In this document: in pieces, positions 18,750 through 21,243 of the stretch | How positions within the stretch are numbered: the stretch's first letter is position 1 | Layout: each line of letters opens with the position of its first letter | Assembly: GCA_001781335.1 (NCBI GenBank) | Contig: MFLL01000027.1 | Span: 1-39,720 of the forward strand | Direction of reading: 5' to 3' | Length of the DNA: 39,720 bases | DNA from: Candidatus Kaiserbacteria bacterium RIFCSPHIGHO2_02_FULL_55_25 | Lineage (GTDB): Bacteria; Patescibacteriota; Minisyncoccia; Phycocordibacterales; UBA2100 | Position numbers and translations under genes: made by a program | The notes under the pieces: generated by a model | The model's input: the letters and a program-made list of their open reading frames with translations, nothing else | What the model was told of the DNA's origin: nothing | The model's database searches: none

Positions 18750-19409
18750 ATGGACGGCAATCAATCCCAACAGTTGATGGCCACATTTACGACGAATGTG
18801 GACTGGAACAAGGTCGACTTCGAAAAGATCGGAGCGCAAAGCTTGATCCGCAATCCGAAATTTGCAGGTGCACAATTCCGTGCGTGGATGGAAAACGGCT
18901 GTCGCTTCGTCATCAAGGGCCCGAGCGTGCTCGTCATCGACCGCTCCAAGCCATTCGATTCGACCAGATTCCTCGGCCAAGGGTCGAGCATCTGGCGCGG
19001 TCCGGCCGAGGGCAAGGGCCTCGAAGGCGAGGAAGACCAAGACTCGCGCTCGGTCGCCTTGACCGAACTCGATTTCTCGAGCGTCGCGTTCGACAACTTC
19101 CTGAAGGAAGACGAGCCGACCATCATCGGCGAAGAGAAGCTCGTGCGGATGAAGGCCGACCCGCGCATCCGCTACGACGCGGGGGTTGGTGTGGCGCTCC
19201 TCGACGAGAAGGGCCAGGCCACGTTGCGATGGCTCCACGACACGTATGGAATTACGTGGATGGAGTTCGCAACCGTGCTGCGCTACTCGGACGGCCACCG
19301 GTGCTTCCTGTTTCTCGACCGGCGCGGCGGCGGTTCGTGGCACGCGCGCTGCCGCTGGCTCGGCCACGGTCGCAGTGCCGGCGGCGTGTCTCCGGTTTCT
19401 GCAAGTTGA
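18750..19409 (+). CDS. DGR target protein with C-terminal variable (probable C-type-lectin-fold) region
   Basis: SD ggagg 6 nt before ATG 18750; C-terminus LRYSDGHRCFLFLDRRGGGSWHARCRWLGHGRSAGGVSPVSAS is encoded by the VR, which matches the TR downstream with A-only substitutions. Confidence 0.9.
   Translation: MDGNQSQQLMATFTTNVDWNKVDFEKIGAQSLIRNPKFAGAQFRAWMENGCRFVIKGPSVLVIDRSKPFDSTRFLGQGSSIWRGPAEGKGLEGEEDQDSRSVALTELDFSSVAFDNFLKEDEPTIIGEEKLVRMKADPRIRYDAGVGVALLDEKGQATLRWLHDTYGITWMEFATVLRYSDGHRCFLFLDRRGGGSWHARCRWLGHGRSAGGVSPVSAS
19278..19401 (+). repeat. DGR variable repeat (VR)
   Basis: Gap-free alignment to TR 19729-19852 (offset 451). In 123 nt there are 21 mismatches, all at TR adenines (13 A>G, 6 A>C, 2 A>T). 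Confidence 0.97.
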
Positions 19410-19728: not shown

Positions 19729-19852
19729 CTGCGCAACTCGGACGGCAACCGGTACTTCCTGTATCTCAACCGGAACGACGACGGTTCGTGGAACGCGAAC
19801 TACAACTGGCTCGACAACGATCGCAATGCCGGCAACGTGTCTCCGGTTTCTG
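19729..19852 (+). repeat. DGR template repeat (TR)
   Basis: ctgcgcaactcggacggcaaccggtacttcctgtatctcaaccgg...gtgtctccggtttctg; donor of the VR; 28 adenines in 18 codons, 21 altered in the VR. The shared 3' end cgtgtctccggtttctg is a candidate IMH. Confidence 0.97.
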
Positions 19853-19861
19853 TAACTCTCC

Positions 19862-20233
19862 TCATTTCTCCCCCGCTTTTGCGGGGGAGTTTTGCTTTCT
19901 CAACTGTCCCTGCCAACCTCCGAGCATCTTGCCGACCTCGTCCACTTTTTCGGAGAGTGCGGCGTACTTTTTCACGTCGAGCGATTTTGTCTCCCACAAG
20001 ATCATCAATAATAGTTTCAGCGCATCAATTTTTCGCGTAGCCAGCCGCACGTACGGCAATTTCTCTTCCCGAGAAAGAAATGCTGCTGCTGACGTGGCCT
20101 CTACCGCTTCTATGAACAACCCGTCAATCCGTGCGCCGAGTGAATATCGGTGGATTTTCGGGAGGGTAGAATGATGTTCATGCCAGAGAATGTAGGCCGC
20201 CTTGATGCGCTCCAAAAGGGGCAAAAGCCGCAA
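19862..20233 (-). CDS. avd: Avd-like four-helix-bundle DGR accessory protein
   Basis: LPLLERIKAAYILWHEHHSTLPKIHRYSLGARIDGLFIEAVEATSAAAFLSREEKLPYVRLATRKIDALKLLLMILWETKSLDVKKYAALSEKVDEVGKMLGGW; resembles Avd/bAvd-type four-helix-bundle proteins. N-terminus uncertain (TTG 20233 or 20224, or frameshifted at G10). Confidence 0.85.
   Translation of the reverse strand: MRLLPLLERIKAAYILWHEHHSTLPKIHRYSLGARIDGLFIEAVEATSAAAFLSREEKLPYVRLATRKIDALKLLLMILWETKSLDVKKYAALSEKVDEVGKMLGGWQGQLRKQNSPAKAGEK
19868..19893 (+). terminator. Hairpin plus T-run immediately downstream of TR
   Basis: ctcccccgc-tttt-gcgggggag followed by tttt; lies inside the 3' codons of the antisense avd gene. Confidence 0.7.
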
Positions 20234-20243
20234 GGGGGGGGGG
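20234..20243. repeat. G10 homopolymer at the divergent avd/RT 5' ends
   Basis: caa-gggggggggg-tacgg; 10 consecutive G. Confidence 0.95.
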
Positions 20244-20325
20244 TACGGCTAGGCGGATTCAATTCGCTCATTCATACGAGGATATCATCTCGGTCGAGAA
20301 TCTCCTCGCCGCATGGTGTGAGTTC

Positions 20326-21243
20326 GTGAGAGGCAAACGCCAGAAGAAAGACGTGCAAGAGTTCCAGCATTGTCTGATGGACAATATCCTTGCACTCCAT
20401 CGCGACCTCGCGGCGGGAACGTACGAACATGGCGGCTACAAACACTTCCGCATCAGCGACCCCAAGCCCCGCGACATCCACAAGGCAAGCGTATGCGACC
20501 GCCTGCTCCATCACGCCCTGTATCGCACACTTTACCCATTCTTCGACCGCACCTTTATCGCTGACTCGTATTCATGCCGCAAAGGCAAGGGAACGCACCG
20601 AGCCATGAACCGTTTCCGAGAGTCCGCATACAAAGTATCGCGTAACCACACGCGTACGTGCTGGGTACTCAAGTGCGACATCCGGAAGTTCTTTGCCTCC
20701 ATCGACCAGAACATTCTGCTCGACATAGTCCGTACCTACATTCCCGACAAGCGCACCGTCGCCCTCATCACCAAAGTCGTCGCCAGCTTCCAAAGTTGGA
20801 CACCCGATGTCCAATATGAGCCAAGAGGATTACCACTCGGAAATCTCACGAGCCAACTTCTCGTCAATATCTATATGAACGAGTTCGACCAATTTGTGAA
20901 GCACACGCTCAAGACGAAACAGTACGTTCGCTATGCCGATGACTTCGTGTTTCTTTCCCACTCAAGGGGCACCCTTGAGGAAATGTTGCCGCGTGTACAG
21001 GATTTTCTCAATGCACGTCTACACCTTGCATTGCATCCCGACAAAGTATTCATCAAAACGTTCGCCTCCGGCGTCGACTTCCTCGGCTGGGTGCATTTTC
21101 CCGACCACCGGGTACTGCGAACAGCGACGAAGTGGAGAATGCTACGGAATCTTGCCGACGATGCGTTCGATGCGCGCGTGGAATCGTATCGGGGATTGCT
21201 GGGGCATGGGAATGCACGGAGACTCACTGCGTCGCTCCGCTAA
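20326..21243 (+). CDS. DGR reverse transcriptase (N-terminus probably further upstream)
   Basis: RGLPLGNLTSQLLVNIYMNEFDQFVKH and YVRYADDFVFLS catalytic motifs; SYSCRKGKGTHRAMNRF; reading frame open upstream to about 20206 encoding RRIQFAHSYEDIISVENLLAAWCEFVRGKRQKKDVQEF. Confidence 0.95.
   Translation: MRGKRQKKDVQEFQHCLMDNILALHRDLAAGTYEHGGYKHFRISDPKPRDIHKASVCDRLLHHALYRTLYPFFDRTFIADSYSCRKGKGTHRAMNRFRESAYKVSRNHTRTCWVLKCDIRKFFASIDQNILLDIVRTYIPDKRTVALITKVVASFQSWTPDVQYEPRGLPLGNLTSQLLVNIYMNEFDQFVKHTLKTKQYVRYADDFVFLSHSRGTLEEMLPRVQDFLNARLHLALHPDKVFIKTFASGVDFLGWVHFPDHRVLRTATKWRMLRNLADDAFDARVESYRGLLGHGNARRLTASLR

Follow-up and report, generated by a model that had tools for sequence, protein, structure and literature searches.

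A tract of ten Gs lies between the start codons and the bodies of two antisense genes, avd and the reverse transcriptase (RT) gene, of a diversity-generating retroelement (DGR). We infer, with a probability of about 0.87, that this tract is a simple-sequence repeat (SSR) contingency locus, through which the DGR is switched on and off phase-variably. The anatomy, its conservation, the non-triplet repeat units, the frame statistics, a repeat length without phylogenetic signal and the absence of MutS were directly observed; slippage in the population, loss of Avd in the OFF phase and on/off mutagenesis were inferred. The evidence comes from one assembly per species, and no reads, expression or protein data stand behind the switch.

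DGRs, which are abundant in Patescibacteria, rank among the strongest known targeted mutators of prokaryotes, yet little is known about how their activity is controlled. The window, that is, the whole stretch of 39,720 nucleotides analysed here, lies in contig C27 of an 868-kb genome that is 99% complete. The closest named relatives of its RT in a similarity search were from Ca. Kaiserbacteria and other Paceibacterota/Parcubacteria. The window carries a DGR with RT, avd, template repeat (TR), variable repeat (VR) and target gene. The avd (minus strand) and RT (plus strand) genes diverge, their antisense 5' ends overlap, and the G10 tract is inside the overlap. The features are as follows:

18750..19409, plus strand: DGR target gene, with ATG at 18750; the ORF reaches back to GTG 18711
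19278..19404, plus strand: VR, in the 3'-terminal part of the target gene
19729..19855, plus strand: TR, with nearly all TR-VR mismatches at TR adenines
19862..20233, minus strand: body of avd (accessory variability determinant, bAvd); it lies downstream of the TR, in antisense to the RT leader
20171..20233, plus strand: probable RT 5' segment, open as far as the tract; its ATGs at 20171/20174/20180 are antisense to His codons of Avd
20234..20243, no strand assigned: G10 simple-sequence repeat (putative contingency tract), between the start codons and the bodies of avd and RT
20244..20271, minus strand: avd 5' segment, open as far as the tract from ATG 20271, which is complementary to the RT His codon CAT
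20244..21243, plus strand: DGR reverse transcriptase body in the RT frame, with the conserved N-terminus RIQFAHSYEDIISVENLLAAW; PF00078 E 2.5e-25

Besides PF00078, the RT matched the reverse transcriptase family phrog_1423 (E 9e-101). These family matches, the TR/VR/avd context of the cassette and an aligned homologous set together met the criterion for a DGR-type RT. TR adenines were the site of 21 of the 22 TR-VR mismatches. The window avd matched bAvd (PF22296, E 3.3e-10, above the cut-off), and the Avd of a paralogous DGR in the same genome matched phrog_3206 (Avd) and, below the cut-off, NF033474. The Avd leader with the repeat falls outside the NF033474 profile. In the predicted structure of Avd, the 16-residue leader including the repeat is disordered and a helical bundle begins at residue 17, with a fold that matches BPP-1 Avd (4dwl) and also 8ub7. 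No family match was found for the window target protein in Pfam or PHROGs, or for that of the paralogous DGR (L004 10243-10887) in NCBIfam, and an Rfam scan of the window locus gave no match. Targets without domains were also noted in the Patescibacteria clade by Roux et al. (PMC8144416). With its RT, Avd, TR/VR with adenine-specific differences and adjoining target gene, the cassette is similar to BPP-1 type DGRs and to Patescibacteria DGR clade 2 (Roux et al. 2021). Unlike in BPP-1 type DGRs, avd is antisense to RT with overlapping 5' ends. Moreover, unlike in known DGRs, an SSR interrupts the avd start and, in the window, also the RT start.

An earlier note, made from the window sequence alone, had proposed that the length of the G10 tract decides whether both genes are open, either as a phase-variable switch or as a miscalled homopolymer. 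The tract and the frames around it were found as it had described them. Between the stop at 20203 and GTG 20326, the RT frame is open but contains no ATG, GTG or TTG. The ATGs at 20171, 20174 and 20180 are in another frame and run through the tract to a product that ends after 52 aa, and the minus-strand ATG 20271 is off-frame with the Avd core and yields a dead product of 53 aa. As assembled, avd and RT are thus each out of frame with their own ATGs, although the exact G10 rests on a single assembly without read-level support. The note had also pointed to a strong Shine-Dalgarno sequence (ggagg); it is present in the window but is not conserved in the paralogue, and we consider it weak evidence. 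GTG 20326 was rejected as the RT start, since an RT starting there would lack YEDIISVENLLAAW, which the N-terminal alignment showed to be kept in all relatives. A non-canonical RT start at ATT 20257 could exist. TTG 20233 is at the tract-proximal edge of the Avd core, and a weak, tract-independent Avd start at this codon is not excluded.

The second DGR of the genome, on contig C32, has the same anatomy and start codons as the window DGR. Its tract is CA-G9 instead of CAA-G10, two bases shorter, and both genes are in frame, with RT and avd open from the counterparts of plus-strand ATG 20171 and minus-strand ATG 20271, respectively. The restoration of both frames by a change in tract length, claimed from the window alone, is therefore realised in the paralogue. 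Judged by the assembled frames, the window DGR is OFF and its sister on C32 is ON. All 17 TR-VR mismatches in the 91-nt core of the paralogue are at TR adenines. Near the second DGR lies a remnant of a third RT of this family, which lacks the N-terminal half (L004 2978-3539, contig C32 11478-12039). A transposase-like ORF (L004 9140-9766), judged by eye only, is a few hundred bases upstream of the target gene of the second DGR. There are only four runs of at least nine Gs in the 868-kb genome and two of them are the DGR sites. The other two are in a Gly-rich linker of a probably secreted protein (G000:C25:27549-27557, L408) and between two ORFs, beside a NUDIX-like ORF (G000:C8:22257-22265, L407); they could be further variable loci.

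Within the genus, RT matches were found in 16 of 52 genomes, and nearly all full-length loci had G7-G14 at the equivalent site. Order-wide and phylum-wide searches together with named genomes gave 334 distinct DGR RT loci. The avd gene was antisense in 280 of them and sense in six, and it was not found by profile in 48, many of which are distant viral contigs or cut ends. Of the 280 antisense-avd loci, 239 had an SSR immediately 5' of the Avd core. The repeat was poly-G (G7-G14) in 213, GA/AG in 16, GT/TG in four, CT in three, and TTGG, CTGA or ATTG in one each; no triplet unit was found among the 239. The criterion for an SSR locus, a non-triplet repeat between the start codon and the gene body, was thus met in 239 loci. 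Among 214 relatives, the 100-nt bin that holds the site contained an SSR in 201 of 210 cases, and SSRs occurred elsewhere in those loci at about 0.002 per 100 nt, an enrichment at the site of about 430-fold. TTGG and ATTG repeats occupy the site in two loci that are 91% identical, and an 85% relative carries G9; the repeat unit thus turns over while the site retains a repeat. Since loci were sampled by similarity to the window RT, the prevalence figures are valid for that RT group. SSRs are rare among RTs below about 57% identity in the N-terminal match, and almost none of the viral-contig DGRs, which were used as controls, carry the tract.

Four loci of the SSR group (L091, L114, L134 and L211) have a repeat of G6 or shorter or none, and all are in frame, as if locked ON. 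In L126 (G341:C6), 19 Ns occupy the repeat site with G6 on each side, and the locus is 97% identical to L125, which has G9; the Ns could result from masking or from a break in the assembly where the repeat length was polymorphic. We also considered two other roles for the repeat. A Pro/Gly homopolymer kept for the protein sequence was rejected, as the repeat encodes Pro, Ser-Leu, Thr-His or Pro-Thr-Asn-Gln depending on the locus. A ribosome-binding poly-G with a fixed 13-nt spacing from tract to start-like codon was rejected as well, as the units change and the distances varied once more loci were included.

The avd gene is the one affected most generally. In the 197 SSR loci of the first survey, a distance of 4-12 nt mostly separated the repeat from the Avd core. 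On the other side of the repeat, a minus-strand ATG open to it was found in 196 of these loci, in a single phase in 171, and none had an ATG between the repeat and the Avd core. TTG or GTG occurs there in 68 of the 197, and a weak internal Avd start is possible in some of these. In four loci (L204, L237, L240 and L246) the gap between avd and RT is 80-160 nt, and the SSR remains beside avd. The leader including the repeat is absent from the Avd of SSR-less relatives (L019, L028). Moreover, the RT His codon opposite the avd ATG was CAT in 146 SSR loci and CAC in three, compared with 55.5% CAT in the RT body (p=2.4e-33), a bias that would be expected under selection for the antisense avd ATG.

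In 185 SSR loci, a start codon for the RT lies between the repeat and the RT core; the repeat therefore does not affect the RT of these loci and switches avd alone. There are 54 SSR loci, including the window, in which the RT has no such start. An upstream plus-strand ATG, with an open frame up to the repeat and in the avd phase, was present in 37 of 43 testable loci without an own start, versus 33 of 161 with one (p=2.6e-15). In the window group, each ATG faces a His codon on the opposite strand: that of RT is complementary to one in Avd, and that of avd to one in RT. Because of this pairing, both junctions are in one register and identical lengths open both genes. The claim that one length opens both N-termini therefore holds for the window and a subset of loci, but not for most relatives, where only avd is switched. 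The nearest loci suggest that the own start of the RT may have been lost through a shortening of about 9 nt between the repeat and the core.

The avd gene was in frame with its ATG in all 39 SSR-less loci but in only 66 of the 239 SSR-bearing loci (Fisher p=1.6e-19). The deficit was also seen in non-G SSR loci (10 of 26 in frame versus 39/39; p=8e-9). Of 204 loci with a single candidate phase, 45 were in frame and 68 and 91 were in the other two phases, so the in-frame phase was rarer than one third (p=5e-4). The median product length was 27 aa for OFF and 134 aa for ON. These Fisher and binomial tests assume independent loci; the loci are related, but phase itself has no phylogenetic signal. 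On a tree of 269 loci, phase changed 87 times (85.4 with shuffled labels) and poly-G length 112 times (114.4). SSR presence, with 14 changes versus 36.8, followed the tree. Unit type followed the tree too, and the on/off state changed as often as shuffled labels. The criterion for a contingency locus, a frame that varies with repeat length among relatives without phylogenetic signal, was therefore met. Since length, phase and on/off state changed as often as shuffled labels, repeat length changes faster than the sampled lineages diverge. No MutS was found in the window genome, and only 1 of 118 genomes of the order had MutS over the cut-off; fast change of repeat length is consistent with this lack of MutS across the genomes. 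The modal poly-G length in the two larger geometry classes is the in-frame length plus one G, and thus a single contraction would switch avd on.

We propose that slipped-strand replication errors alter the repeat length. The repeat separates the start codon of avd from the Avd core, and no unit has a length divisible by three, so that each gain or loss of a unit would shift avd in or out of frame. In the window group, where the RT begins on the far side of the repeat, one length would toggle avd and RT jointly. Avd is essential for cDNA synthesis in the BPP-1 DGR (PMC6642488). Since Avd is needed for DGR cDNA, its loss in the OFF phase would leave no cDNA and no target mutagenesis, and mutagenesis would be gated at random, with only a minority of cells or lineages ON.

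Three other explanations have to be weighed. The true tracts might all be in frame, with Gs lost or added by sequencers or assemblies. Long G runs are error-prone and the window has no read check, but 72% of the loci are out of frame in many independent assemblies, and the loss of frame in non-homopolymer repeats argues against base-calling error. An SSR is also conserved at one site, with di- and tetranucleotide replacements. We regard this explanation as extremely improbable. Simple miscalling, one of the two options of the earlier note, cannot explain the pattern across relatives, and the other, a phase-variable switch, is favoured by the in-frame paralogue, the conserved and length-variable SSR, the replacements of its unit, and the 66/239 versus 39/39 loci in frame.

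It is also unlikely that all cells restore the frame by slippage during transcription or by ribosomal frameshifting, with a steady low output and no switching in the DNA. RNA polymerase slippage is possible on homopolymers of nine or more, and RNA-level slippage would tolerate out-of-frame lengths and give a low product level. However, GA, GT, CT, TTGG, CTGA and ATTG units serve equally at the site, and to our knowledge such repeats are not known as RNA polymerase slippage signals. A constant shift of -1 or +1 does not fit either, since the two non-zero phases each occur often (68 and 91 of 204). Finally, translation of Avd and RT might begin at weak or non-canonical codons beyond the repeat, which would then serve some other purpose, for example as a ribosome-binding or structural element. 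This has some support in the 185 loci with an RT start beyond the repeat and the 68/197 with TTG or GTG before the Avd core. Nevertheless, it would not account for the in-frame far ATG in all 39 SSR-less avd genes or for the preservation of that ATG through codon choice (146:3), and changes in unit composition exclude a G-specific role of the repeat. We find it very unlikely.

A phase-variable switch remains the preferred reading. Like the contingency loci of Neisseria, Haemophilus and Campylobacter, the DGR loci have mono-, di- or tetranucleotide repeats of comparable length in the 5' part of the coding sequence, and as in SSR contingency loci the phase is random and unit changes lose and restore the frame. 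Known phase-variable SSR loci mostly switch surface structures or DNA methyltransferase genes (PMC11475388). In contrast to those of Neisseria, Haemophilus and Campylobacter, the product switched here is part of a mutagenesis machine, and, unlike in known contingency loci, in one group a single repeat is in the overlapping 5' ends of two antisense genes. No earlier report of a repeat-based DGR switch was found in the literature searched, from which subscription papers were largely absent.

Very likely, an entire lineage of Patescibacteria DGRs is under stochastic genetic control, in which SSR slippage toggles Avd, or Avd and RT in one group, and the contingency locus picks the hypermutating cells. 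The activity of DGR clade 2 (Patescibacteria) is lower than average (PMC8144416), and the same paper offers purifying selection as another possible reason. Low activity of the clade is compatible with a mostly-OFF population, and the switch, if true, would be a possible reason for it. Automated gene calling would often miss or misannotate avd and some RTs. Mixed repeat lengths would be expected within populations, with the in-frame length alongside fresh VR diversity. A slippage switch would explain how a cell line can retain a mutator whose cost does not fall on every generation, and the DGRs would be a two-level mutation system, with a contingency locus above targeted hypermutation.
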